Shown here: in pieces, positions 21,120-35,587 of the stretch
How the letters are laid out: every line of letters begins with the position of its first letter
Numbering within the stretch: the stretch's first letter is position 1
Source of the DNA: Verrucomicrobiota bacterium
GTDB taxonomy: Bacteria; Verrucomicrobiota; Verrucomicrobiia; Chthoniobacterales; UBA10450
Assembly (NCBI GenBank): GCA_003218305.1
Contig: QHMY01000104.1
Coordinates: 1 to 39,894, forward strand
DNA length: 39,894 bases
Direction: 5' to 3'
Position numbers and translations under genes: made by a program
The notes under the pieces: generated by a model
The model's database searches: none
What the model was told of the DNA's origin: nothing
The model's input: only the letters and a program-made list of their open reading frames with translations

Positions 21120-21734
21120 CTAGCGCTTTCCCGCTGATTTTTTCTTCGATGCAGCCTTGGCCGGCGCTTTCTTTTTCGAAGATGGTTTTTTAGTTGCAGC
21201 CTTCTTTTTTGAAGAAGCCTTGGCCTCGGATTCGCCCTCTGCCGGCGCCGTCTCCTGGACGACGCGGGGTCCCTGTGCGGCCCTCTTTTCTCGCAGCGTT
21301 ACGGTCCCGCCCGCCTTCTCGATTTTCTCACGAGCCGAAGCACTGATCTTGTCAGCCTCGACGGTGAGACCGTGTTTCAATTCACCGCCACCGAGAATCT
21401 TGAGCCCGGCACCGTTGCCACGGATCAATTTCGATTCGCGCAACATCTGTTCGTTTACGACGGTGCCTTCCTTGAAAGCACTCAAGTCGCTCAGATTCAC
21501 GATCATGTAATTCTTGTGAAAGGCCGCGTTATTGAAACCGCGTTTGGGCAAGCGCCGGATCAGCGGCATCTGGCCGCCTTCGAACCCGAGCCGAAGACTC
21601 CCGCCGGAACGCGCCTTTTGCCCCTTGTGTCCCTTGCCACTGGTCTTGCCGTGACCGGAGCTTTCCCCGGAACCAAGCCTCTTCACGCGATGCGTGGAGC
21701 CCGGCCGCGGCCGCATATTATGGAGCCGGATCAT
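21120..21734 (-). CDS. rplO: 50S ribosomal protein L15 with Lys/Ala-rich C-terminal tail
   Basis: L15 is a 23S rRNA binder of late 50S assembly. The core, about residues 1-150, has [37 protein letters not shown] and [17 protein letters not shown]. Residues ~165-204 form an added low-complexity tail of Lys, Ala and Ser repeats ([20 protein letters not shown]), giving 204 residues instead of about 145. The start overlaps the rpsE stop by 4 bp, leaving no room for rpmD (L30). Confidence 0.97.
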
Positions 21735-22285
21735 GACTGTTCGGCCTTTCCGTCGTTCAGGCGAATCCCGCGCACCTTCAAAATTTCATCACGCCGGCGC
21801 AAAGAGCGCAGCGCCGCAATGGTGGCCTTGACGACATTCGAATGATTGCTGGAGCCAAGCGACTTCGCGAGCACGTCGCGAATCCCGACCGCCTCCACCA
21901 CCGCGCGAACACCGCCGCCCGCGATCACGCCGGTCCCCGGCGAGGCCGGGCGCAGCAGCACGCGGCCACCGCCAAATTCGCCGATCGCCTCATGCGGAAT
22001 CGTATTCTCGTGCAACGACATTTTTTCCATCGATTTGCGCGCGGCTTCGGATGCTTTCCGGATCGCCTCGGCCACTTCGTTCGCCTTACCAAAGCCGACG
22101 CCGACTTTGCCATCGTGGTCGCCCGCGACAATCAGGGCGCTGAAGCTGAAACGCCGGCCGCCTTTGACGACCTTCGCGCAACGATTGATGAACACTACCT
22201 TCTCGGTCGTGTCTCCCCTTGCCGCTGAGCTCTTGTCCGTCTGGCGTTCCTGCCGTCTGCCGCCGCCGCTATGTGGTTGTGCCAT
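21731..22285 (-). CDS. rpsE: 30S ribosomal protein S5
   Basis: S5 lies at the mRNA entry and decoding fidelity region. The 184-residue protein has the S5 N-terminal dsRBD-like domain ([44 protein letters not shown]) and the C-terminal half ([21 protein letters not shown]). The first ~25 residues (Gly/Arg/Gln-rich) are a short extra tail. It lies 6 bp after rplR and overlaps rplO. Confidence 0.97.
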
Positions 22286-22291
22286 GGTGTT

Positions 22292-22657
22292 CTAAAATTT
22301 GAGTCCGCCTTCGCGCGCCGCATCCGCCAGGGCCTTCACTTTTCCGTGATAAAGAAACCCACCCCGGTCAAAAATGACCTTGTCGACTTTCTTTGAGAGC
22401 AGGCGTTCGGCGATCGCCTTGCCAACCTTTTCTGCGGATGCCCGATTTGCCCCCGACTTGGTTTTGCCTACTACCTTTTCCTCGGTCGTCGCGGCTGCCA
22501 CCAGCGTGCGCCCGGCATCGTCGTCGATAACCTGCGCATAAACATGCTTACCCGAAAAATGAACGGCGAGACGGGGACGCTCCGCCGTACCGCTGACGCG
22601 TTTTCTGATCCGCGTATGGATGCGGTGCCTGATTTCCTTACGATCCCTGGCGGCCAT
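22292..22657 (-). CDS. rplR: 50S ribosomal protein L18
   Basis: L18 binds 5S rRNA in the central protuberance. The 121-residue protein shows the basic N-terminus ([20 protein letters not shown]), [20 protein letters not shown] and the C-terminal [20 protein letters not shown]. It sits 2 bp after rplF and 6 bp before rpsE. Confidence 0.97.
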
Positions 22658-22659
22658 AA

Positions 22660-23199
22660 TTATTGAACGGTCTTCCCTTCCTTACGGCGAACGATTTCGC
22701 CTGCGTATCGCACACCCTTGCCCTTGTACGGCTCCGGCGGGTAATACCGGCGGATATCCGCTGCAACCTGCCCCACCACCTTCTTGTCGATCCCGACAAT
22801 GGCGATCTTGGTGTTATCGGTCACGGTGATCTTAATTTCCTTGGGAATCGGAAACAGAATCGGATGGGATTTTCCGAGACTCAAATTCAGGTTGGACCCC
22901 TGGACCGCCGCCTTAAACCCGACTCCTTCGATCTCGAGTTGCTTGGTAAATCCTTCGCTCACGCCCAGCACCATGTTATTCACGAGGCTTCGCGACAGGC
23001 CATGCAGCGCTTTGACGCCGCGGGTTTCGGCTTCGCGGACAATCGAAATGCGGTTGTCCTTAACGCTGCCTTTGATGCTACGCGGCAGGTTCCAGCTCAA
23101 TTTCCCCTTCGGCCCCTCGACGGCCACAGCGCCATCAGCGGCGATGTTCACCTTCACCTTGTCGGGAATCTCGACGATTTTGTTTCCAATCCGTGACAT
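22660..23199 (-). CDS. rplF: 50S ribosomal protein L6
   Basis: L6 is near the factor-binding site at the base of the L7/L12 stalk. The 179-residue protein has both L6 repeats. The first begins [19 protein letters not shown]. The second contains [20 protein letters not shown], and the family signature [14 protein letters not shown] is near the C-terminus. It lies between rpsH and rplR. Confidence 0.98.
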
Positions 23200-23214
23200 A
23201 AAATCAAAGCCCGC

Positions 23215-23613
23215 CTACCAGATGTAGGCTAGCAGCTCGCCTCCCACGTTTTGTTTCTTCGCTTCCCGTCCGGAAAGGATGCCGCGGGGCGTGGAAAGAA
23301 TCGACACCCCCATGCCGCCCAACACGCGAGGAATCTCCTGCGCTCCGACATAACGGCGCAGACCCGGCCGGCTGACGCGTTTCAGGCCGGTGATCGCACT
23401 GGTGCGGTTGGCAATCTTGTTCGTGATCTTGATCCGCGGATGCGCCGCTTCGGTATCCATCGAGTAATCGGTGATGTAGCCCTCTTCCTTCAAAATCCGC
23501 ACGATCTCGGCCTTGATTTTGGAGTACGGGACAAACATCTCAGTCTTCTGCGCATTCGCGGCATTGCGCACGCGTGCGAGAAGGTCGGCAATAGGATCGG
23601 TAACTGTGCTCAT
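23215..23613 (-). CDS. rpsH: 30S ribosomal protein S8
   Basis: S8 binds 16S helix 21 and in E. coli represses the spc operon. The 132-residue protein begins MSTVTDPIADLLARVRNAAN and ends with STPRGILSGREAKKQNVGGE and LLAYIW. It follows rplE by 8 bp. The rpsN gene usually found between rplE and rpsH is absent. Confidence 0.98.
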   Translation of the reverse strand: MSTVTDPIADLLARVRNAANAQKTEMFVPYSKIKAEIVRILKEEGYITDYSMDTEAAHPRIKITNKIANRTSAITGLKRVSRPGLRRYVGAQEIPRVLGGMGVSILSTPRGILSGREAKKQNVGGELLAYIW

Positions 23614-23621
23614 GTAATTAT

Positions 23622-24197
23622 TCAGGCCGGCTGGGCCGCGGCCGGCTTCTTCGCCCGGTCGCTGAACGGCATCCCCATCTCGCTCAAGAGCGATTTTGCT
23701 TCTTCGTTCGTCCGCGCGGTGGTGACGATGGTAACATCAAATCCGATGTTGCGCTTGATTTTATCCAGCTCAACCTCAGGGAAAATTGCCTGGTCCGAAA
23801 CACCGAGCGTGTAATTGCCGTTGCCGTCGAAACCCTTCGGCGAGACGCCGCGGAAGTCGCGAATGCGGGGCAGAGAGGCCTTGATCAGCCGCTCCAGAAA
23901 TTCATACATGTGCTCGCCGCGCAGGGTGACCTTCGCGCCGATGGCCTGGGCCTGGCGGAGTTTGAAATTCGCGATGCTCTTCTTCGCCCGAGTCTCGGAA
24001 GGCTTCTGGCCCGTAATTAAGGCCAGCTCGGCCTTCGCGTCTTCCAGCGCCTGCTTTACGTCCGACTGAGAACCGACGGAAGTGTTGATCACAACCTTCT
24101 CCACCTTCGGGACCTGATGCGGGTTTTTGTAGCCGTGCGTCTTTTGCAACGCCGGCATCACGCGCTCTTTATAATGCTGATAAAATTCGTTCTTCAT
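23622..24197 (-). CDS. rplE: 50S ribosomal protein L5
   Basis: L5 binds 5S rRNA and contacts P-site tRNA. The 191-residue protein shows [78 protein letters not shown] and [21 protein letters not shown] short Ala/Pro-rich tail (KKPAAAQPA) ends it. It lies between rplX and rpsH. Confidence 0.98.
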
Positions 24198-24206
24198 GCG
24201 CCGGGC

Positions 24207-24539
24207 CTATTCCTGCTTCGGTTCCTTCTCTTTCGAGCCCTTGCTCTTGGGAGCCTTTTCCTTCTTTGTTTTTCCCTTGCCCTTCCCTTTCGCGGCGCGT
24301 TCGCCGCGTTCGAGCACTTTCACATTCGAGATGTGAATGGGACCCTCACGCTCCGAGATTTTGCCTTGCGGATTATCCTGAGACTTTTTCAGATGCTTCT
24401 TGATCATCCGCACGCCCTCGACCAGCACGCGCTGTTTGCGTGCGATCACTTCGAGCACCTTGCCGGAGGAACCTTTGAAATTCCCGGAGATGACTTCGAC
24501 GTTGTCGCCTTTGTGGACGTGGAGCTTGATGCGGTTCAT
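24207..24539 (-). CDS. rplX: 50S ribosomal protein L24 with Lys-rich C-terminal tail
   Basis: L24 is an assembly-initiator protein. The KOW motif is at about residues 7-35 ([20 protein letters not shown]), followed by [20 protein letters not shown] and [10 protein letters not shown]. Residues ~80-110 are an added tail of Lys, Gly and Glu ([19 protein letters not shown]). The start overlaps the rplN stop by 4 bp. Confidence 0.96.
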
Positions 24540-24904
24540 AAAACCTCCGGAGCGAGCGAAACAATTTTCATGAAATTGCGCTCGCGCAACTCACGCGCGA
24601 CCGGCCCGAAAATACGGGTGCCGCGCGGATTCAAATCCTTGTCGATAATCACGATGGCGTTGTTGTCGAAACGGAGCACCGAACCGTCTCCCCGCTTGAT
24701 CGGCTGCCGCGTCCGCACCAGGACCGCTCGAACGACCTCGCCTTTCTTCACGGTCCCCGTGGCGCTGGCTTCCTTGACGTTCGCCACAATCACGTCGCCG
24801 ATCCCAGCCGACTGCGCCGTCCCCTTGCCGATCACGCCAATCATCGTCGCCATGCGGGCGCCGCTGTTGTCGGCCACGTCGAGTCTGGATCTCAGGTAAA
24901 CCAT
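24536..24904 (-). CDS. rplN: 50S ribosomal protein L14
   Basis: L14 forms an intersubunit bridge to 16S helix 14. The 122-residue protein is typical: [60 protein letters not shown] and [20 protein letters not shown]. An AAGGAAAG lies about 7 bases upstream of the ATG as ribosome-binding site. Confidence 0.98.
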
Positions 24905-24916
24905 AAAAATCTTTCC

Positions 24917-25210
24917 TTACTTCTGCACGACCTCGACCAGCCGCCACCGCTTCAATTTGCTTAGCGGCCGCGTCTCCATGATCCGGACGGTGTCGCCGGC
25001 CTTGGCCTTGTTCTCTTCGTCGTGGGCGTAAAATTTCCGCATCTGCTTCACGATCTTGCCGAACTTGGCGTGGGGCACCCGCGTGACCGTGCGAACGACA
25101 ATGGTCTTGTTCATCCCGCTGGAAATCACCTCGCCGGTCCGCGTCTTACGCGCACCGCGGCTTGTCGCCGGATTGCTCTCCGCGCTTGGTTGATCGTTTT
25201 CTTCTGCCAT
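24917..25210 (-). CDS. rpsQ: 30S ribosomal protein S17
   Basis: S17 is a primary 16S rRNA binder with an OB fold. Start ATG at 25210 ([14 protein letters not shown]) is chosen because it lies 1 bp past the rpmC stop; the frame is open 9 codons further upstream. After an acidic, disordered 25-residue N-terminal tail the core reads [40 protein letters not shown] and [20 protein letters not shown]. The length is 97 residues against about 85 usual. Confidence 0.96.
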
Positions 25211-25211
25211 A

Positions 25212-25415
25212 TTATTTCTTTTCCGCCTTGGCCGCACGCTGCGTGAGGACCGTTTCCAACCGCGCCACGTCCCGGCGAATGAGCCGCAACCGGCTCGGCT
25301 GTTCCAGCTGTCCGCTCTGTTGCTGCAAGCGCAGGTGCAGGCTTTCCTGACGCAAATCTCGCTTCTTCGTCAGCAATTCGTCGGAACTCATTTCCGATAT
25401 TTCTTTAAATTTCAT
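25212..25415 (-). CDS. rpmC: 50S ribosomal protein L29
   Basis: L29 lies beside L23 at the polypeptide exit tunnel. It is a 67-residue two-helix protein: [20 protein letters not shown], then [20 protein letters not shown] and the conserved [12 protein letters not shown] end. It lies between rplP (6 bp) and rpsQ. Confidence 0.96.
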
Positions 25416-25421
25416 AACTCG

Positions 25422-25847
25422 TTAGGCTGCTGCCACGTGGTGCCGGGTCAGGAACTTTGTCCGGACCGGTAATTTATCCGCAGCCAGGCGAAGGGATTCG
25501 CGAGCGACGGATTCCGTCACGCCATCAAGTTCGAACAGAATATTGCCCGGCCGGACCGTGGCCACCCAATATTCCGGCTGGCCTTTGCCCTTACCCATTC
25601 GAGTTTCGGGCGGACGTGAAGTCACCGACTTGTCCGGAAAAATCCGGATCCAGAGCTTGCCTTTGCGCTTCATGCTCCGCGTCAACGCTACGCGCGCCGC
25701 CTCGATCTGCGTGTTCGTGATCCAGGCCCGTTCCAGCGTCTGCAAGCCAAACTCGCCGAAGTCAATTCGCAGATTGCGCGAGGCCGTCCCCTTGCGGCTT
25801 CCCCGCTGGGTCTTCCGGTACTTCACGCGTTTTGGCATCAATGGCAT
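25422..25847 (-). CDS. rplP: 50S ribosomal protein L16
   Basis: L16 stabilises A-site tRNA in the 50S subunit. The 141-residue protein shows [79 protein letters not shown] and the usual [13 protein letters not shown] end. A second ATG (25838) could serve as start. Confidence 0.97.
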
Positions 25848-25864
25848 ATCGGTCTCCTAAAATC

Positions 25865-26548
25865 TTAAGCTTCGACTGGTTCCGGTGGCGGGGCCGGAGC
25901 GGCCGCAGCCGCCTCAACCGCCGGTTCTTCCTTTTTGCAGAGCCAGCATTTGACCCCGATCTTTCCATAGACGGTATTCGCTTCGGCAAATCCGTAATCA
26001 ATCGGTGTTCGCAGCGTGTGTAGCGGGACCTTGCCTTCGCGATACCACTCCGAGCGTGAGATTTCCGCGCCGTTCAACCGGCCCGAGCTGCGCAACCGAA
26101 TGCCCTGCGCGCCAAAATCCATCGCCACCTGCACCGCTTTCTTCATCGCCCGGCGATAGGCAATTCGGCGCTCGATCTGGAGCGCCACGTTTTCCGCCAC
26201 CAGCTGGGCATCCAGCTCCGGGGTCTTGATTTCCTGAATGTCGATTTTGATCTGTTTACCCTGGGCCATTTTCGAGATCTCTTCCGTCATTTTCTCGATC
26301 TCGGCGCCTTTGCGGCCAATGACGATGCCCGGCCGCGCGGTGTAGATCGTCACCCGAATGCTGTTCCAGGCCCGCTCAATCACGATCTTCGAGACGGCGG
26401 CGAACTGCAGTTTCTTCTTCACGTAGCTGCGAATCTCCAGATCGCTGTGAAGAAACGCCGGCATTTCCTGAGGTGAGGCGTACCACTTCGAACGCCAGTC
26501 CTTGTTGACCGCGAGACGAAAACCAACTGGATTAACTTTTTGTCCCAT
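25865..26548 (-). CDS. rpsC: 30S ribosomal protein S3
   Basis: S3 forms part of the mRNA entry tunnel. The 227-residue protein has [20 protein letters not shown], a KH domain around [20 protein letters not shown], and the C-terminal domain ([60 protein letters not shown]). It ends with an Ala/Pro/Glu-rich tail of about 22 residues. The CWLC pair just before the tail is an odd local feature. Confidence 0.98.
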
Positions 26549-26551
26549 AAG

Positions 26552-27073
26552 TTACTCTTTCACTTCTTCAAGCGGTGCTTCTTCAGTCGGCGCCTCTTCA
26601 ATGGGCGCCTCCACCTTCTCCGGGGCAGCCTCCGATTTTATCTCGGGCTTCTCCTCGACGATGGGCTCCTCTTTTTTCTTAGCGATCGCCTTTTTGGGCT
26701 TTTTCTTCTGCTGTTTCTTCTTCTCGCGGGTCTTGATTTCGATCTCGTCCGTCAAAATGATCCGGATGTGGCTGCTCCGTTTCAGGATCCGGCTCCCGCT
26801 TCCGCGTGCGCGGGGCATCATCCGCTTCTGGGTTGGCCCCTCGCCCACCGTGGCCTCTTTCACCACCAAGCCCTCCACGCGAAGGTTGGCGTTGTTCTCG
26901 GCGTTTGCCACCGCGCTCTTTAGCGTCTTGGCGATCAGGCCGGCGGCCTTCTTCGGGCTGAACGCGACGAGATCCAGCGCAGCCGAAACCGGCAGCCCCT
27001 GAATCGCGCGCGTGACTTCGCGCACCTTGAATGCCGAAATCTTTGCGTACCGTAATGTCGAACTAACTTGCAT
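26552..27073 (-). CDS. rplV: 50S ribosomal protein L22 with ~55-residue acidic/basic C-terminal tail
   Basis: L22 lines the exit tunnel. The core is about residues 1-112: RYAKISAFKVREVTRAIQGL, KTLKSAVANAENNANLRVEG, and the tunnel beta-hairpin and end around MMPRARGSGSRILKRSSHIR. Residues ~113-173 form an added tail, first Lys-rich (KKKQQKKKPKKAIAKKKEEP) then Glu/Ala/Pro-rich. Its neighbour upstream is not rpsS but an envelope-protein gene, an unusual break in S10-operon order. Confidence 0.97.
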   Translation of the reverse strand: MQVSSTLRYAKISAFKVREVTRAIQGLPVSAALDLVAFSPKKAAGLIAKTLKSAVANAENNANLRVEGLVVKEATVGEGPTQKRMMPRARGSGSRILKRSSHIRIILTDEIEIKTREKKKQQKKKPKKAIAKKKEEPIVEEKPEIKSEAAPEKVEAPIEEAPTEEAPLEEVKE

Positions 27074-27091
27074 TTATTTTCCTGTTTAAAC

Positions 27092-27892
27092 TCACATTTG
27101 GCGGGCGTCCGCCTGGAGGCGATCACCCACCTTAATTTTTTCAGAACCCATTTCTTGAATCACCGCGCCGCAAATTCTCTGGCGCACATCGACCACTCGG
27201 AGCGTCGCAATCAATTTGTCCGCCCGCATCACTCGCATCGGCATCCCCATCTTCACTCCCTGGTTCTGCCCGATGTTGGCCACCACCAGCGACCACTCCT
27301 CCTTGACGCTGATCACCCTGGCATCCATCAACGTCGCCATTTCCTCCGGCGCCTTCGGCTGCTTCGTCGCCAGCTCACTCGCCCCGCGCAACTGCGCTTC
27401 CACTTCCATTCTGGCCAGCGCATCGCCACCCGTGGAAGTCTTGAGCAGGTGGATCACCGCCTCGCTCAACCCCAGCATCTGGTCGCGGTATTTCTCCCGC
27501 TCCTTCTCCGTCAAGCGCAGATCTGAAACCGCGCTCAGCAAACGCTGCTCGAGCTTCGCTCGATCTTTGTTCGCCGAATCGAGCCCGAGCGCTTCCAAGC
27601 GCAATTGCAGGTCGGAATATTTCCGGCGGAACGTTTCCGCCTCCACATTCGCTGCGGCCAGGCTCTCGGTCAATGTCTTGACCGACTCCCGCACAAGCGA
27701 GAGCTGCCTCTGCAATTCTTCATTTTGCGAAGGCAGAGCCGGGGCGGTCACTTTCGTGTCCGCATTTTCAATTTTGGATTCTGACAAAGAACTATTCCCC
27801 TCTGCCGCAAGGCAGACCGTTGAGAGTACCAAGCTGAGAGTTGAGAGAATCGTCTTCTCCCTGGCTCCCGAACTTTTTCTCTCAACTCTCAA
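27092..27892 (-). CDS. exported coiled-coil protein inserted in the S10 operon (unknown function)
   Basis: A protein of up to 266 residues between rpsS and rplV, where bacteria normally have no gene. A hydrophobic stretch (TILSTLSLVLSTVCLAAEG, residues ~14-32) looks like a signal peptide. Residues ~55-150 are charged and heptad-like (EELQRQLSLVRESVKTLTES; LRLTEKEREKYRDQMLGLSE), a coiled coil. Residues ~190-262 form a beta-rich domain (EEWSLVVANIGQNQGVKMGM; VDVRQRICGAVIQEM) reminiscent of the MreC/OB-like fold of envelope proteins. No ATG is available; TTG at 27892 is the best start, preceded by GAGAG, and it lies inside a 15-bp inverted repeat. By inference it is a periplasmic or envelope structural protein. 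The start is uncertain. Confidence 0.75.
   Translation of the reverse strand: MRVERKSSGAREKTILSTLSLVLSTVCLAAEGNSSLSESKIENADTKVTAPALPSQNEELQRQLSLVRESVKTLTESLAAANVEAETFRRKYSDLQLRLEALGLDSANKDRAKLEQRLLSAVSDLRLTEKEREKYRDQMLGLSEAVIHLLKTSTGGDALARMEVEAQLRGASELATKQPKAPEEMATLMDARVISVKEEWSLVVANIGQNQGVKMGMPMRVMRADKLIATLRVVDVRQRICGAVIQEMGSEKIKVGDRLQADARQM
27835..27891. repeat. perfect 15-bp inverted repeat over the start of the coiled-coil gene
   Basis: TGAGAGTTGAGAGAA (27835-27849) and its exact complement (27877-27891) flank 27 bases. The TTGAGAG word recurs nearby (27819, 27841 and, on the minus strand, up to 27908). The right arm covers the TTG start codon of the coiled-coil gene, 15 bp after the rpsS stop. 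Confidence 0.8.
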
Positions 27893-27906
27893 CTCAAAAC
27901 TCTCAA

Positions 27907-28185
27907 CTATTTCGTCACCTTCGCGGTGTGCGAACCGTGCTTCTTAAAGATACGCGTCGGCGAAAACTCGCCGAGCTTATGGCCGACCATATTTTCGGTC
28001 ACAAACACCGAGATAAACGTCTTGCCGTTGTGAACCATGAACGTGTGGCCGACAAAATCCGGCGTGACCATTGAGCGGCGCGCCCACGTTTTCACCGGCT
28101 TCTTCACGCCCGAAGTGTTCATCTTGTCGATCTTTTCGAGGAGATGAGGCGCCACGAACGGTCCTTTTTTTAAAGATCTGGCCAT
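27907..28185 (-). CDS. rpsS: 30S ribosomal protein S19
   Basis: S19 sits in the 30S head with S13. The 92-residue protein is typical: [40 protein letters not shown] and [20 protein letters not shown], ending with [18 protein letters not shown]. It follows rplB by 11 bp. Confidence 0.98.
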
Positions 28186-28196
28186 ATATCAAAAAT

Positions 28197-29036
28197 TTAT
28201 TTCTTCCGGCGGTCCTGCATGATGAACCGATCGCTCGGCTTGTGCTTCGCGCGGGTCTTGAAACCCTTCGCCAGCTGACCCCACGGACTCACCGGGTGGT
28301 GGCGTCCACCGCCGCCCTTCGATTTGCCCTGGCCGCCACCCATCGGGTGATCGATCGGGTTCATGACCATGCCGCGCACGTGCGGACGCCGGCCCTGCCA
28401 GCGGGTGCGACCGGCCTTGCCGCTCGCCACGTTCATGTGATCGACGTTGCCGACCTGGCCGATGGTCGCAAAACAGGTCTCGTGGATCCGGCGAATCTCG
28501 CCCGAAGGAAGCTTGACCAGCGCATAACCGGCTTCCCGGTTGCTCAGCGTGGCCTGCTGCCCGGCGCTGCGCGCGATTTGTCCACCACGGCCCGGAGCGA
28601 TTTCAATGTTATGAATGCTGGAACCCAGCGGGATCGTGCTGAGCGGCAACGAATTCCCCAGGTCGGGCGGAGCCTCGTTTCCGGACATGACTTTCGCGCC
28701 TGCCGTCAAACCGTCTGGCGCGAGGATGTAGCTCATTTCGCCGTCCGCGTACTTAATAAGAGCGATACGCGCCGAGCGATTCGGATCGTACTCGATGCCG
28801 ACTACCTCCGCGACGACACCGTGTTTGCGTCGCTTGAAGTCGACCTTGCGGTACTTCTGTTTATGTCCGCCGCCGATGTGCCGCGAGGTCAACCGGCCAT
28901 TATTGTTCCGGCCGCCACTCCGCTTCTTGACCTCGATGAGGCTTTTATGCGGCTTCGATTTGGTGATCTCGGTAAAAGCCGGAAGCGACTTGAAACGAAG
29001 CGTGGGTGTAAGTGGGCGAAAACTTTTGAGAGCCAT
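28197..29036 (-). CDS. rplB: 50S ribosomal protein L2
   Basis: L2 is a primary 23S rRNA binder near the peptidyl-transferase centre. The 279-residue protein shows [40 protein letters not shown] and the SH3-like centre ([20 protein letters not shown]). The conserved C-terminal loop [20 protein letters not shown], with HHPVSPWGQ, holds the His near the catalytic centre. It lies between rplW (6 bp) and rpsS. Confidence 0.98.
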
Positions 29037-29042
29037 AATCAG

Positions 29043-29327
29043 TTAGACGAGGTCGATCTTCTCGCCTTCCTTCAAGGTCACGATGGCTTTTTTCCAGTGC
29101 GGTTTGCGGCCGAAATCGGCGCGGCGTTCGCGCTTCTTTTTCCCGGCGTAGTTGCACGTGTTCACCGCCACGACCTTCTTGTTAAAAAGTTTCTCGATCG
29201 CGTGCTTGATCTGAATCTTGTTAGCGCGCGGCGACACCCGAAAAACGTACTTGTTCAGCTTCTCACTGAGCAGGGAAGCCTTCTCGGTCAGCCGAACGGT
29301 TTGGATGAGATCGTATGGTTCGTTCAT
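29043..29327 (-). CDS. rplW: 50S ribosomal protein L23
   Basis: L23 is the docking site for trigger factor and SRP at the exit tunnel. The 94-residue protein has LIQTVRLTEKASLLSEKLNK, YVFRVSPRANKIQIKHAIEK and VVAVNTCNYAGKKKRERRAD, with a conserved KKAIVTLKEGEKIDL end. The start overlaps the rplD stop by 4 bp, with AAGGA upstream. Confidence 0.97.
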   Translation of the reverse strand: MNEPYDLIQTVRLTEKASLLSEKLNKYVFRVSPRANKIQIKHAIEKLFNKKVVAVNTCNYAGKKKRERRADFGRKPHWKKAIVTLKEGEKIDLV

Positions 29328-29938
29328 TCCCGGTTCATCCTTTCGGCCAGTTGTTCTAACGCCGATGGCGTGACTAAAATCTTGTCGAAAGCGAGCAATT
29401 GCTCGGCGTTTACGTTCGCCGCCGTTGCGAGCAGGACTGGCTTCACATTCCGAGCGGACCGAAACGTGTTATCATCGAACGAGTCGGAAACGATCAGGAC
29501 TTTCCGCGCATCGGTCTGCTTCTTTACGAGGGCGATAAATAATTTCGTCTTGGTCTCCGCCACGGCGAATTTCTCGACGGTCAACACGTCGCCCGCCTTG
29601 ATCCGTTCGCTCAGTGCCTTCTGAAAGGCGAGACGCTTGGTTGTCTTGGAAACTTTTTTCGTGTAATCGCGCGGCTTTGGCCCGAAGACCACGCCACCGC
29701 CCCGCCAGATCACGGACGATTTGTATCCGGCTCGCGCTCGGCCCGTTCCTTTTTGCCGCCATGGTTTCGCGCCGGAGAGATTCACATCGGCCTTCGTCTT
29801 CGTGTTGGCCGAACCGGAACGACGCGCCGCGCGCATCGCTACGATCGTGTCGTGCAGCGCCTGCGTTCCACGTCCCGTCTCGATCAACTCGATCTTTGCC
29901 TCCTTGGCGGCCGCTGCTGTTAAAACTTTCGCGCTCAT
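29324..29938 (-). CDS. rplD: 50S ribosomal protein L4
   Basis: L4 lines the exit tunnel and in E. coli represses the S10 operon through its leader. The 204-residue protein has the tunnel loop ADVNLSGAKPWRQKGTGRAR, AGYKSSVIWRGGGVVFGPKP and the helical FQKALSERIKAGDVLTVEKF. Whether it regulates this operon is unknown; no S10-type leader lies before rpsJ, which overlaps fusA. It overlaps rplC and rplW by 4 bp each. Confidence 0.98.
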   Translation of the reverse strand: MSAKVLTAAAAKEAKIELIETGRGTQALHDTIVAMRAARRSGSANTKTKADVNLSGAKPWRQKGTGRARAGYKSSVIWRGGGVVFGPKPRDYTKKVSKTTKRLAFQKALSERIKAGDVLTVEKFAVAETKTKLFIALVKKQTDARKVLIVSDSFDDNTFRSARNVKPVLLATAANVNAEQLLAFDKILVTPSALEQLAERMNRE

Positions 29939-30585
29939 TTCTTGGCCGCCTCGCTTGCGGGTTTCTTGATGGCCGGCCGGATGACGACGTAGCTCCCATT
30001 CGATCCCGGAACCGCGCCACTGATCAAAATCACTTTCTCCGTTTCGCGCACCTGCATGACCTGCAGGTTCTGCACGGTGACGCGTTCGTCACCCATGTGG
30101 CCGGGCATGCCCATGTTTTTCCAGATGCGTCCGGGGGTCGAGCGATTGCCGACGGCGCCGTTGCGACGATGCGTTTTGGAACCGTGCGCCGCGCCCTGGC
30201 CCTGGAAGTTATGCTTCTTCATCACGCCCTGAAAACCTTTGCCTTTCGAGCGGCCGATCACATCGACCCAATCGCCCGGCTGGAATTGAGTCACGCTCAA
30301 ATCGACGTCTCCCTCGGGCGCGTCGGCCTCGAGGCGAAATTCTTTCATGAGTTTCTTGGGCTCAGAGCCGGCCTTGGTGAATTCCCCGAGGCGCGCCTTG
30401 GTCACCCGCGACTCTTTCTGCGCGCCGAACCCGACCTTGACCGCGGAGTAACCATCCTTCTCCGCAGTGATCCGGCGCAGGAGCACGTTATCGCCCGCCG
30501 CGATGACGGTTACCGGACGCATCCGGCCGTTCGCGTCGTAAACGCTGGTCATGCCGATTTTTTGTCCTAGTAAACCGATGCTCAT
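29935..30585 (-). CDS. rplC: 50S ribosomal protein L3
   Basis: L3 is an early assembly protein reaching toward the peptidyl-transferase centre. The 216-residue protein shows GLLGQKIGMTSVYDANGRMR, KGFQGVMKKHNFQGQGAAHG (including the region of the methylated Gln in E. coli L3) and GKTHRR-like HGSKTHRRNGAVGNRSTPGR, with GMPGHMGDERVTVQNLQVM. A basic KKPASEAAKK tail ends it. It lies 35 bp after rpsJ. Confidence 0.98.
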   Translation of the reverse strand: MSIGLLGQKIGMTSVYDANGRMRPVTVIAAGDNVLLRRITAEKDGYSAVKVGFGAQKESRVTKARLGEFTKAGSEPKKLMKEFRLEADAPEGDVDLSVTQFQPGDWVDVIGRSKGKGFQGVMKKHNFQGQGAAHGSKTHRRNGAVGNRSTPGRIWKNMGMPGHMGDERVTVQNLQVMQVRETEKVILISGAVPGSNGSYVVIRPAIKKPASEAAKK

Positions 30586-30932: not shown

Positions 30933-33106
30933 TTGGTTTCCTTCTGATCAAGAACGGCCGCGACGAGCTGTGCCGGCACCTGTTCGAAATGGGATGGCTC
31001 CATCGAGTAACTCGAACGGCCTTTTGAAAGTGAGCGGATGGCAGTGGCGTAACCGAACATTTCCGCGAGGGGAACCTCCGCGTTGATCATCATCAGGTTC
31101 CCTTTGGACTCCATGCTTCCGATCTTGCCGCGGCGGCGCTGTAAATCGCCCATGATATCACCCTGGTATTCCTCCGGAGTCGCATTCTCGACCTTCATGA
31201 TTGGCTCGAGCAGAATCGGCTTTGCTTTCTTGAAAGCGTCTTTCACCGCAAAAATCGCGGCCAATTTGAAGGCCATTTCGTTCGAATCGACGTCGTGATA
31301 CGACCCGTCGACAATATCAACATTGGCGTCGATCACCTCGTAACCACCAACCACGCCGTTGCGCATGGCCTCTTCGATCCCCTTCTTGCAAGCCGGGATG
31401 TATTCCTTCGGGATATTTCCGCCAACGACTTTGTTCTCAACCGTAATGCCTTTGCCACGCTCGTTCGGCTGCACCTTAATAATGACGTGGCCATACTGAC
31501 CGCGGCCGCCTGATTGCTTGATCAGCTTGCCCTCGCCATCCGCCGGCGCGGTAATCGTCTCGCGATAGGCGATCTGCGGCTTGCCCGCGTTCGCGTCCAC
31601 TTTGAATTCGCGGAGCATCCGGTCGCGGATGATCTCGAGGTGGAGTTCGCCCATGCCCGCGATGATCGTCTGGCCGGTATCTTCGTGGGTGAAAACTTTG
31701 AAAGTTGGATCTTCCTCGGAGAGCCGCTGAAGCGCGACGCCCATCTTCTCCTGGTCCTGCTTGGTCTTTGGCTCGATCGCCATCGATATAACCGGATCAG
31801 GAAACGAAGGTGGCTCGAGCAGGATTGGAAAATCTTCGTCGCAGAGCGTGTCGCCCGTGGTGATGTTCTTGATGCCAACAATCGCCGCGATGTCTCCCGA
31901 GAAGCAGGTGTCGATATCTTCGCGTTTGTCCGCCTGAATTTGAATCAAACGGCTGATCCGCTCGCGCTTGTTGGTGCGCGGGTTGTAAACGTTGTCGCCC
32001 TTGCTCAGTTTTCCGGAATAGACGCGGAAGAAAACCAGTTTCCCAACGAATGGGTCGCTCCACAGTTTGAAAGCGAGGGAACAGAACTTCCCCTTGTCGT
32101 CAGTCGGCGCTTCCATCTTCTCGTGGGTGTCCGGCTCCATCCCAACCGCGGGCGGAATGTCGAGAGGGCCCGGCAGATAATCGACCACGGCGTCGACGAG
32201 GTATTGCACTCCCTTGTTCTTGAACGCAGAACCTCCCACCACCGGCACGAACTTATTGGCAATCGTCTGGCGGCGGATGCCGGCCTTCAGCATTTGCGGC
32301 GTAATCGGCTTCTCTTCCAGGACGGCTTCGGCCACCTCGTCGTCAATATTGGAGATAGCCTCAACTAAATCAGCATAGGCCTTGTCTACCTGAGCCTTGT
32401 TCTCTTCCGGAATGTCCCGCACTTCGTAGACAGAACCCATCGAGTCGTCATCGAGATAGAACACGGCCTTGCGGTTCACCACGTCGAGCTGACCCTTGAG
32501 ATAATCTTCTTTTCCAAGAGGGATGAGAATCGGCCAGGCATTTGCGCCGAGTTTTTTGCGCATCGAGTCGATCGACATGTCGAAGTCGGCACCGACGCGA
32601 TCCATCTTATTAATAAAGGCAATACGCGGGACGAGGTACTTGTTCGCCTGGCGCCAGACGGTCTCCGATTGCGGCTGAACTCCGGCCACGGCATCAAAAA
32701 CGGCGATCGCACCATCTAGAACGCGCAATGACCGCTCCACCTCCGCGGTGAAATCCACGTGCCCGGGTGTATCGATGATGTTCACGCGCATTTTAATGCC
32801 CTCGAACATCTTGTAGACACCCTCTTCGGGCTTCTGCATCCAGGCGCAGGTCGTGGCCGCGGACGTAATCGTGATGCCGCGCTCGCGTTCCTGCTCCATC
32901 CAGTCGGTCACGGTGGTGCCTTCGTGCACCTCACCGATCTTGTGGATCATGCCAGTGTAAAAAAGAATGCGCTCGGTTAGCGTGGTCTTGCCGGCGTCAA
33001 TGTGCGCCGCGATGCCAATGTTCCGCGTCCGTTCGAGCGGAAACTTGCGGTCGGGCGAATTCGGATTCGTCGGAGCGGCGGATTTTTGTTCGAGCGTGGC
33101 GGGCAT
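30929..33106 (-). CDS. fusA: elongation factor G
   Basis: The translocation GTPase, 725 residues. The G domain shows [20 protein letters not shown] (P-loop), REGITIT-like [16 protein letters not shown] (switch I), [20 protein letters not shown] (G3) and INKMDR (G4). Domains II-V follow with [20 protein letters not shown] and [14 protein letters not shown] (domain IV), ending in [17 protein letters not shown] 20-residue extra N-terminus ([20 protein letters not shown]) precedes the G domain. It follows rpsG by 13 bp and overlaps rpsJ. Confidence 0.98.
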
Positions 33107-33119
33107 AACGAGAAAAGGG

Positions 33120-33593
33120 TTACCAGCGGAAATGGGCGAAGGCGCGGTTGGCTTGGGCCATTTTGTGGGTGTCGTCGCGTTTCTTGATCGCGTTGCCCTG
33201 GCCGGCCGCGGCGTCTTTCAATTCGGCGGCGAGCGCCTCGGCCATCGGCAGACCGCGGCGGTTATCCGCGTATTGGACGATCCAGCGCATCGCGAGAGAA
33301 ACCTGGCGCGCGGGGGTGACTTCCATCGGCACCTGATAGGTCGCGCCACCGACGCGGCGTGATTTTACTTCGAGGCGGGGGCGCACATTTTCCAGCGCCT
33401 TGTTGACGATTTCGAGAGGATCAACTGCGTCCGAGCCTTCGCGGGATTTATCGATCGCCGTGTAAACGATCCGTTCGGCGAGTGATTTCTTGCCCCGTTT
33501 CATCACGGTGGAAATGAGGCGCGCGACCGCCGGACTGCCGTAACGCGAGTCGAGCTTCTCCTCTTTTTTGTAAACTTTCCGCCGCCGAGACAT
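33120..33593 (-). CDS. rpsG: 30S ribosomal protein S7
   Basis: S7 nucleates the 30S head and contacts E-site tRNA; in E. coli it represses the str operon. The 157-residue protein has [60 protein letters not shown] and the end [14 protein letters not shown]. It lies between rpsL (34 bp) and fusA (13 bp). Confidence 0.98.
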
Positions 33594-33627
33594 GTGATTC
33601 TGTTTCCGTACTTATTAGAGTGCTAAA

Positions 33628-34026
33628 TTATTTCTTGGCCGCCGCGTCGCCTCCTGCTTTCGGACGCTTCGCTCCGTATTTCGAACGGCTGCGCCGGCGC
33701 CCGTCAACCCCGAGGCTATCGAGCGTTCCCCGCACAATGTGGTAACGCACGCCCGGCAAATCTTTCACGCGTCCGCCTCGCACGAGCACGATTGAGTGCT
33801 CCTGGAGATTGTGTCCTTCGCCGGGAATGTAGGCAATCACTTCCTGGCCATTCGTCAACCGCACTTTTGCCACTTTTCGCAGCGCGGAATTCGGCTTCTT
33901 CGGCGTCCGCGTCATGACCTGGGTGCAGACGCCGCGCCGTTGCGGACAATTCTTCAGCGCCGGTGATTTCGATTTCACCGAGACCTTCTTTCGTCCCTTG
34001 CGAATAAGCTGATTAATTGTTGGCAT
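33628..34026 (-). CDS. rpsL: 30S ribosomal protein S12
   Basis: S12 shapes the decoding centre. From the ATG at 34026 the 132-residue protein reads [20 protein letters not shown], with [12 protein letters not shown] and [19 protein letters not shown]. The lysines altered in streptomycin-resistant E. coli (Lys43, Lys88 equivalents) are both wild type. The open frame continues to 34350 but that part has no S12 homology and covers the promoter region. A short Ala/Lys tail (GGDAAAKK) is present. It is the first gene of the cluster and no clear Shine-Dalgarno precedes it. Confidence 0.98.
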
Positions 34027-34033
34027 CGTCGTT

Positions 34034-34068
34034 AAATTAAAAGCCGCCCGATCTACGTAATCCGGGCG
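34034..34068 (-). terminator. second leader hairpin before rpsL (terminator-like)
   Basis: On the minus strand CGCCCG pairs with CGGGCG (34045-34050 with 34063-34068, plus a bulged AT/AT extension). GCTTTTAATTT follows. It ends 8 bases before the rpsL start, so it could terminate transcription or affect initiation. Confidence 0.5.
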
Positions 34069-34070
34069 AC

Positions 34071-34116
34071 AAAAAAACCGCACAGGCCGCGTTTTGCTCC
34101 CACGCACCTGATGCGG
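34071..34116 (-). terminator. leader intrinsic terminator / candidate attenuator upstream of rpsL
   Basis: On the minus strand CCGCA-U-CAGG pairs with CCTGTGCGG (one bulged base). Inner GCGT/ACGC pairs continue the stem, and seven T residues (34071-34077) follow. No minus-strand gene lies upstream for it to terminate, because the neighbour is divergent, so it must act on the rpsL transcript itself. This points to attenuation. Confidence 0.7.
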
Positions 34117-34125
34117 AGAGCCGGC

Positions 34126-34153
34126 AATATAGGAACGATTCGAGACGCTGCAA
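34126..34153 (-). promoter_or_regulatory. putative promoter of the ribosomal superoperon
   Basis: Minus strand: a TATATT -10 box (34131-34126) with TTGCAG 16 bases upstream (34153-34148). The expected start, near 34119, would be just before the leader terminator. The -35 match is weak. Confidence 0.45.
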
Positions 34154-34221
34154 CAATATTTTCGACAATTTAGGGCGGTGCAGTGAACCGCCGCGTTCCA
34201 CCCGAAGCGCCCAAAACGCAT

Positions 34222-34263
34222 TTGACACGCCAACTTATTTCTATTATTTCTGTTTAGACAGAA
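34222..34263 (+). promoter_or_regulatory. putative promoter and operator of the GbsR-type regulator
   Basis: TTGACA at 34222-34227 is followed by TATTAT (34242-34247, short 14-base spacing) or TATTTC (34245-34250, 17 bases). The perfect palindrome TTCTGT-TTAG-ACAGAA (34248-34263) overlaps the -10/start region, 13 bases before the ATG, a fitting place for autorepression. Confidence 0.4.
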
Positions 34264-34276
34264 CAGACTGACATTT

Positions 34277-34810
34277 ATGGCTAACCTCAATCCCGTCGCC
34301 CAAAAGTTCATTCTGCACTGGGGAGAAATGGGCACCCGTTGGGGCATCAACCGGACCGTCGCGCAAGTTCACGCCCTCCTCGTCCTTTCCGAGAAGCCTC
34401 TGCCTGCGGATGAGATCGCCGAGACGCTGGGTATCGCCCGTTCGAATACCAGCACCAGCCTTCGGGAACTCCAAAACTGGGGCATCGTAAAAATCGTTCA
34501 TGTCCTGGGCGATCGGCGCGATCACTTCGCTTCGCTCCAAGATGTGTTCGCCATGTTCCGGACGATCGCGCATCAGCGAAAAAAGCGGGAGATTGACCCG
34601 ACGGTCCATGTCCTGCGGGATTGCCTTGCGGAAGCCGACAAGACCAAAACCACCAACCCGCATATCCGCAGCCGACTATCGGAGCTGCTGGAGTTTTTCG
34701 AACTGGCTGGGAGCGCCTACGAGCGGCTGGAGAAATTGCCCACGCCCGCCGTGCTCAAGATCGCAAGGCTGGGCGACAGAGCGCTCAAGCTGGTTGGCGT
34801 CGCCAAATAA
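34277..34810 (+). CDS. GbsR/MarR-family transcriptional regulator
   Basis: A 177-residue winged-helix regulator. The N-terminus [37 protein letters not shown] and the HTH ([22 protein letters not shown], residues ~38-62), then the wing [19 protein letters not shown], follow the GbsR (choline/glycine-betaine regulator) pattern. The helical C-terminal part mediates dimerisation in relatives. The ligand is unknown, and no choline or betaine genes are nearby. It lies 12 bp before the DUF2071 gene, probably in one transcript, and a palindrome sits in its promoter. Confidence 0.85.
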
Positions 34811-34822
34811 CCGGGAAGCACG

Positions 34823-35587
34823 GTGACGACCGCGACCGCCTCGATCGCCTTAAGCGAAGCGGGTAAACGCCGGATGCTTTCCCGCGCGGGCGAGCCGCTC
34901 TTTTTCGCCCGTTGGGACCGCGCTATTTTCATTCATTACGAGGTGGATCCCGTTGTCTTGCAGCGGGAAGTTCCATTTCCGCTCGATCTGCGCGAAGGGC
35001 GCGCGTACGTCAGCCTGGTCGCGTTCACCCTGCGGCGGATGCGTCCGCGCCGCGGAGGCCGTCTGGCTGAATGGCTTTTCAAGCCAATCGCCTCCCACGA
35101 ATTCCTCAACGTTCGCACTTACGTGAGGCACGCCGGCGAGCCCGGGATTTTTTTCCTGGCCGAATGGCTTTCCAACCCCTTGAGCGTTCGCCTTGGCCCG
35201 CGCAGCTTCGGGTTGCCGTATCGCTTCGGCCGCCTGCGATACGCGCACGACGAGGAAGGCGAAATATTCGGAAGCGTGACGGCCAACGAAGGGCGGCTAA
35301 CCTATCGCGCCACGATGCCGTCCCCCAGCTGGGCTCCGTGCGAAAGCGCCTCGGAGCTCGAGTTCTTGCTGGAGCGCTACACCGCCTTCACCTGCCAACG
35401 AGGGCGTCGGCGCCTTTTCCGGGTGTGGCACGAGCCGTGGCCCCAGGTGCCAATCGAAATCGAAGTCACGGCAGACGATTTACTCGCCGCAAGCGGACGC
35501 TGGTGGCGCAGCGCCGAATACGTGGGTGCAAACTTTTCTCCCGGGGTCGAGGTCTGGATGGGCCGGCCGCACCGAATTCGCGCCTGA
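34823..35587 (+). CDS. DUF2071 (YqjF-like) protein
   Basis: A 254-residue cytoplasmic protein of unknown function. Family features are an early ARWDRAIFIHYEVDPVVLQREVP segment, VSLVAFTLRRMRPR, HEFLNVRTYVRH, GIFFLAEWLSNPLSVRLGPRSFGLPYR and the aromatic LLERYTAFTCQRGRRRLFRVWHEPW. The fold belongs to the acetoacetate-decarboxylase-like group, but no catalytic lysine could be assigned here. GTG start at 34823 is supported by GGGAAG at 34813-34818. It is coupled to the GbsR-type regulator upstream and converges on the ABC-F gene. Confidence 0.85.
   Translation: MTTATASIALSEAGKRRMLSRAGEPLFFARWDRAIFIHYEVDPVVLQREVPFPLDLREGRAYVSLVAFTLRRMRPRRGGRLAEWLFKPIASHEFLNVRTYVRHAGEPGIFFLAEWLSNPLSVRLGPRSFGLPYRFGRLRYAHDEEGEIFGSVTANEGRLTYRATMPSPSWAPCESASELEFLLERYTAFTCQRGRRRLFRVWHEPWPQVPIEIEVTADDLLAASGRWWRSAEYVGANFSPGVEVWMGRPHRIRA

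Follow-up and report, generated by a model that had tools for sequence, protein, structure and literature searches.

The window, by which we mean the whole stretch of 39,894 nucleotides analysed here, carries on its minus strand a ribosomal protein cluster in which the str genes are fused to those of S10 and spc, and whose gene naming extends down to position 21731. It belongs to a genome of 3.6 Mb in 285 contigs. The genes of the cluster and the elements of the leader ahead of it are the following.

33628..34026, minus strand: rpsL (S12), first gene of the cluster
33120..33593, minus strand: rpsG (S7), TIGR01029
30929..33106, minus strand: fusA (EF-G), TIGR00484
30621..30932, minus strand: rpsJ (S10), TIGR01049, overlapping the end of fusA
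within 21731..30585, minus strand: rest of the fused S10-spc part, with rplC, rplD, rplW, rplB, rpsS, rplV, rpsC, rplP, rpsQ, rplN, rplX, rplE, rpsH, rplF, rplR and rpsE
34148..34153, minus strand: -35 element TTGCAG, its TTGC/TTGA position kept across the family leaders
34126..34131, minus strand: -10 element TATATT, assigned from its sequence
34078..34116, minus strand: hairpin I, a terminator-like stem of -20.3 kcal/mol
34071..34077, minus strand: U7 tract abutting the 3' end of hairpin I, a U-rich tail in 65/65 leaders
34065..34070, minus strand: GUCGCC box, 5' arm of hairpin II, GUCNCC-like across families
34043..34070, minus strand: hairpin II, its pairing conserved and its U-tail variable

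With a gap of 34 nt between rpsL and rpsG and an overlap of fusA and rpsJ, no control point other than the leader is obvious upstream of the S10 genes. Farther into the cluster, about 830 nt between rpsS and rplV hold a 266-codon frame (27092-27892, minus strand) without a Pfam or NCBIfam match. On the other side of the leader, a MarR-like regulator gene (34277-34810; PF12802, with a weak CudC match) begins at 34277 on the plus strand and is thus divergent from the cluster, as the first-pass annotation of this DNA had noted.

In hairpin I the arm CCGCA-U-CAGG (34116-34107) pairs with CCTGTGCGG, which ends at 34078, and GCGT/ACGC form the inner pairs. Hairpin II is followed by TTTTAATTT, and the rpsL ATG (34026-34024, minus strand) stands 16 nt past it. 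The -10 element, the stem with its inner GCGT/ACGC, the seven T and the second hairpin had already been pointed out in the first pass, and each lies where it had been placed on this strand. From the position of the promoter, transcription is predicted to start at about 34119 (+-2), and hairpin I begins about 3 nt past this predicted start.

A match to rpsL was found in 65 of the 83 genomes of the window's family, covering 12 of its 14 genera. Sixty-four family leaders were readable and a sixty-fifth (L216) was added later; L112, on a contig shared with L032, and L118, whose leader is truncated at a contig end with a visible portion that agrees with the layout, were left out of the 64. Three genomes (G024, G054 and G065) show two rpsL leaders each, possibly because they are mixed bins. 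The succession of promoter, hairpin I, U-run and GUCGCC-like box is common to all 64 readable leaders and to the 12 genera, with the qualification that a -10 of the form TATA[GT]T was itself a criterion for selecting them. The -35 is kept in all 64, as a TTGC/TTGA lying 16 nt (61 leaders) or 17 nt (3 leaders) upstream of the -10; such a tetramer is present in 114 of 409 other stretches of equal size. Between the 12 genera, mean pairwise identity reaches 0.74 from the -10 through the U-run, 0.69 in the promoter and 0.66 from the U-run to the ATG, and stands at 0.63 for the third codon positions of rpsL and 0.51 for the 100 nt upstream of the -35, where the shuffled baseline is 0.48. It is this conservation between 12 genera that gives the predicted leader elements their decisive support. 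Hairpin I had been expected to prove part of the transcript, its start site lying upstream; the conserved position of the promoter speaks for this, at the level of sequence. Several relatives from the same genus also carry a TCTGTCTAGACAGAA-like palindrome upstream of rpsL.

Hairpin I is markedly stable for its composition, at -20.3 kcal/mol against -12.8 +- 2.5 in dinucleotide shuffles, of which 0.8% out of 1000 are as stable. For the whole leader stretch of 106 nt the excess in stability is more modest, at z -1.71, and is equalled by 10 of 200 shuffles. Over 33000-35000, a generic scan for consensus terminators, which admits loops of 3-8 only, returned 3 sites where 3.1 were expected and included neither hairpin; such a scan is not discriminating. 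Across the 64 leaders the hairpin always ends at most 2 nt before a run of U5-U8, with a mean stem energy of -22.5 kcal/mol (range -29.2 to -13.7), and in all 65 leaders at least 6 of the 8 nt after stem I are U. One of the weaker stems, that of L012, has -15.2 kcal/mol and is equalled by 4.5% of its shuffles. Stem I is moreover conserved beyond its pairing, which exceeds the need of a plain terminator.

Behind the U-run, the box reads GTCGCC in 56 of 64 leaders, GTCGTC in 6, and GTCGGC and GTTGTC in one each. This conservation is left unexplained by the reading in which an RNA of 45-50 nt, released at the U-run, acts in trans as a small RNA and rpsL is attenuated as a side effect; the conservation of stem I beyond pairing would fit such a role, which we nevertheless hold to be highly improbable. 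Hairpin II itself is paired in 87.5% of its alignment cells. Of the 65 leaders, 49 have at least 5 U among the 8 nt of its tail, but in 58 the longest U run is at most 4; the count drops to 1-3 U in five leaders from genus g12. Since this tail is rarely an unbroken U run and is U-poor in g12, hairpin II is not counted as a second conserved terminator, and the tandem terminators proposed in the first pass do not hold as a conserved design: the second tail is shorter, interrupted and, in that one genus, missing. In the window hairpin II is followed by UUUUAAUU, and given this tail it may terminate weakly.

The pairing of both stems was followed in an alignment of 65 leaders (A2) that was fitted to a covariance model, R1, and is hence biased towards the structure of that model; four leaders with long loops had been left out before an earlier alignment, A1. 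Standard pairs fill 92.1% of the A2 cells, against 30.0-52.4% when the structure is slid along the alignment. Changes on both sides occur at 8 of the 20 pairs, where shuffles give 3.3 +- 1.1 and 1 in 500 is as high; 3 of the 20 pairs are invariant, and further pair types show no excess in A2 over shuffles (142/500). On the raw MAFFT alignment, RNAalifold recovered part of both stems, at -6.8 kcal/mol. The candidate attenuator of the first pass, inside the transcribed leader, is thus supported in being both conserved and covarying among relatives.

Model R1, built from 60 of the 65 family loci, matches all 65, including L005, L007, L009, L018 and L216 outside the build; across the genome of the window, a single match reaches E<=0.001. 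Among 63 rpsL loci from the order's other families, 31 have a match (E<0.2) in the orientation of rpsL that begins 72-136 nt upstream of the ATG; three of these loci (L207, L208 and L210) had been chosen because of an R1 match. These counts rest on 35 of 43 match rows, the other 8 having been left out (six loci with matches off rpsL, and the second matches of L210 and L221); among the rows kept, L221, L241 and one match of L236 lie farther upstream and another match of L236 lies on the opposite strand. None of 26 further loci (two f13 genomes, six named contigs and 18 genomes of the class from outside this order) has a match below E 0.7. Matches off rpsL occur in L209 and L211-L215 and score up to 29 bits; of these six, the two inspected, in L209 between two genes and in L214 inside a gene, were taken for chance from their places.

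A simpler signature, U4 or longer followed after 0-2 nt by [GA]TCnC, occurs in 36 of the 63 rpsL upstream regions from the order's other families (shuffles 2.2 +- 1.3, maximum 7); outside the order, 1 of 18 regions has it. The 27 regions that lack it belong to f2, f3, f6, f10 and f12, to most of f11, to 8 of 20 in f4 and to 1 of 9 in f9, and two further f13 regions lack it as well. As read from these regions, several lineages have either lost the signature or never had it.

The stem changes between families. Those of f4, f5 and f9 retain CCCGC/GCGGG at the base and differ in the inner stem. In f7, f8, f11 (g38) and L258 of f13, the terminator stem has a wholly different sequence and the 5' CCCGCA sits in a separate hairpin. 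Yet the replaced stems keep a hairpin followed by U7, and few shuffles are as stable: 0.1-0.2% in f7, 0.8% in f8, 0-1.4% in f11 (g38) and 2.8% in L258. Hairpin and U-run are kept while the sequence of the stem is replaced, and this is our main argument for reading hairpin I as an intrinsic terminator. It also bears on a reading without a terminator, in which hairpin I stabilises the 5' end and the U-run serves as a standby site or enhancer of translation. Hairpins at the extreme 5' end are known stabilisers, and there is no obvious Shine-Dalgarno sequence ahead of the window's ATG; but the stem abuts the U-run in 64/64 leaders and in the replaced stems too, and in 12 representatives 42-45 nt, including hairpin II, separate the U-run from the ATG. 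We regard this reading as unlikely.

Other features of these leaders deserve mention. A 5' hairpin, CCCGCACAnnGnCGGGG, stands ahead of the terminator in L241-L243, L247, L251 and L258 (f8, f7, f11 and f13). By eye, alternative pairing is possible in f7 and f8, and in f8 a GGUU..AACC pairing could hold the 5' arm of the terminator as a possible antiterminator. Other-family leaders share by eye a motif before the rpsL ATG, TATCGG..GC[AG]GC.CCGGAWAA, which is carried by L037, L055, L282, L287, L288, L290, L293 and L297; these loci come from f15, f33, f64 and f70 of the class and from two named contigs, Prosthecobacter and Roseibacillus. It may represent a second, unrelated ribosomal protein leader; L288 and L290 have no Rfam match at E<=0.5.

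Hairpin, U-run, conservation and covariation are directly observed, as is the promoter as a conserved sequence. Taking them together, we consider it likely that the leader is a promoter-proximal transcription attenuator of the fused str-S10-spc operon, and its hairpin and U-run would probably brake ribosome production. RNA polymerase would start a few nucleotides ahead of hairpin I, which would fold in the nascent RNA. At the U7 tract, part of the polymerases would release a leader RNA of about 45-50 nt, and the remainder would continue through the GUCGCC box and hairpin II into rpsL and the fused cluster. From the same elements we infer termination in the cell, regulation of the terminated share and the kind of regulator. 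That share would be set by a factor touching the nascent stem or the polymerase: mean pair probabilities over the 65 family leaders revealed no competing antiterminator helix, all alternatives above a mean probability of 0.12 being extensions or shifts inside the two hairpins, and hairpin I, so close to the predicted start, leaves no room for a competing antiterminator upstream. A switch, if the leader has one, would thus have to act on the stem or on the enzyme. By analogy with known ribosomal protein leaders, the regulator would most likely be an excess ribosomal protein of the operon, with S7 as first suspect, from its role in E. coli, and L4 as second.

A more specific form of the attenuator was followed in the sequences: the leader would mimic the 16S site of S7, the product of the cluster's second gene, and S7 bound to it would raise termination. 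In f7, f8, f11 (g38) and L258, the CCCGCACAnnGnCGGGG hairpin shares CCCGCACA or CCCGCACAA with 16S positions 940-948 of the window's genome, which we take to lie in the S7 region; we assigned to this region, by assumption, the stretches 931-990 and 1355-1412 (7.6% of the 16S). This short match was spotted post hoc. In local alignments of 46 segments to 16S, 2 reached p<0.05 (300 shuffles), as by chance, and 6 of the 46 best matches fell within 931-990 or 1355-1412. Mimicry of 16S was hence rejected as evidence of an S7 site, by a test of sequence that is weak against purely structural mimicry. S7 is the autogenous repressor of str in E. coli and uses the same determinants to bind rRNA and mRNA, according to a 2024 review (PMC10931766), and on balance we consider this form of the attenuator rather doubtful.

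Antitermination offers another route to autoregulation, for the cluster encodes S10: hairpin and boxA would together form a nut-like site for NusB-S10. Nus-factor genes are known to be autoregulated through boxA, and a putative boxA precedes some rpsJ operons, as described in PMC5725501. In the window's family, GATCTTTGA occurs in 8 of 9 rrn leaders, no farther than 420 nt from 16S; it is conserved about 300-400 nt before 16S in L147-L155 and is likely the boxA of the family's rrn leaders. Among the 64 rpsL leaders, the closest approach to GATCTTTGA has 2 mismatches, in 4 leaders, and 10 shuffled leaders have 2 or fewer. A NusB/boxA site in the leader was rejected, its matches being no better than those of shuffles, and we give this reading very little credence.

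A leader peptide was also discarded, an ATG lying between the promoter and the rpsL ATG in 10 of 64 leaders and leader lengths falling in all three phases (25, 23 and 16). The element was also sought ahead of a second gene, among 20 sites of U6-GTCGCC away from rpsL, chosen from 99 listed rows. Eighteen fall in stop-free frames of 150 codons or longer, which is weak evidence of coding because the rpsL leader site itself lies in one of 246. The extended form GCGGC-U6-GTCGCC recurs in several genomes (including G058), where the opposite strand is free of stops over 453-486 codons; 8 of the 20 sites (L300-L305, L307 and, to judge by the length of its frame, possibly L318) seem to represent a single recurrent coding site read on that strand.

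Going beyond the family, an order-wide feedback attenuator without an RNA switch could be envisaged, in which the 5' stem of the terminator is the regulator's binding site, GUCNCC tunes release against read-through, and output from the entire cluster depends on this one device across a large verrucomicrobial group. We put this forward tentatively, as possible and still short of probable.

Several known systems come close to the attenuator proposed here. Attenuators upstream of rpsL were predicted in Listeria, Xanthomonas, Pseudomonas and Rickettsia (Naville and Gautheret 2010, PMC2965389), and the same article reports that Merino and Yanofsky found such attenuators in 24 species. As described there, they likewise consist of a predicted intrinsic terminator in the rpsL 5' untranslated region, and a terminator-like hairpin with a U-run between promoter and rpsL is present in 64/64 family leaders. 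Distant species share no common feature among them, and the same is true here. Each of those cases is given a possible antiterminator, whereas none was found in the window's family, and the leader described here differs by its GUCNCC-like box after the U-run and by its phylum. The Pelagibacter rpsL motif (Meyer et al. 2009, PMC2704228) is likewise a structured leader heading a fused str-spc-S10 cluster; by its description, in 'Candidatus Pelagibacter ubique' a bulged stem leads to a three-stem junction, whereas two consecutive hairpins are found here, and according to PMC2965389 that motif fails the criteria for a terminator. The different design claimed in the first pass was therefore overstated.

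Among the classical systems covered by the 2024 review (PMC10931766), the S10 leader of E. coli, subject to L4-dependent attenuation, also contains an intrinsic termination site in a ribosomal protein operon leader. It is a long leader before rpsJ, whereas the present one extends about 93 nt before rpsL and no leader directly precedes rpsJ, which overlaps fusA. The str operon of E. coli has the same three first genes as the window's cluster; its S7 operator lies between rpsL and rpsG, where the window has a gap of 34 nt, and acts on translation. This review notes that, beyond a few named cases, studies of str control by S7 are lacking. The L10(L12)4 attenuator of B. subtilis rplJL also exerts feedback by a ribosomal protein through transcription attenuation (PMC10931766, PMC4538822), and does so with antiterminator and anti-antiterminator structures (PMC10931766).

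At the gathering score, Rfam 15 has 0 matches in the window, the best in the leader being isrK at E 0.55; the 5 matches at E<=0.5 obtained across 14 related loci fall outside the leaders. The table of 20 r-leader candidates in PMC7247131 contains no rpsL leader, and the open-access literature, to which our search was confined to the exclusion of subscription papers, names no such leader in Verrucomicrobiota. Attenuation of rpsL is thus known elsewhere, and what is new here is an element without an Rfam 15 match and with an unusually simple layout. If termination occurs as predicted, the synthesis of many ribosomal proteins would, in a group of Verrucomicrobiota, be under the control of one short leader. 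A conserved element of about 50 nt with no competing fold in the family also poses the question of how a terminator without an antiterminator is switched, which can be addressed in vitro.
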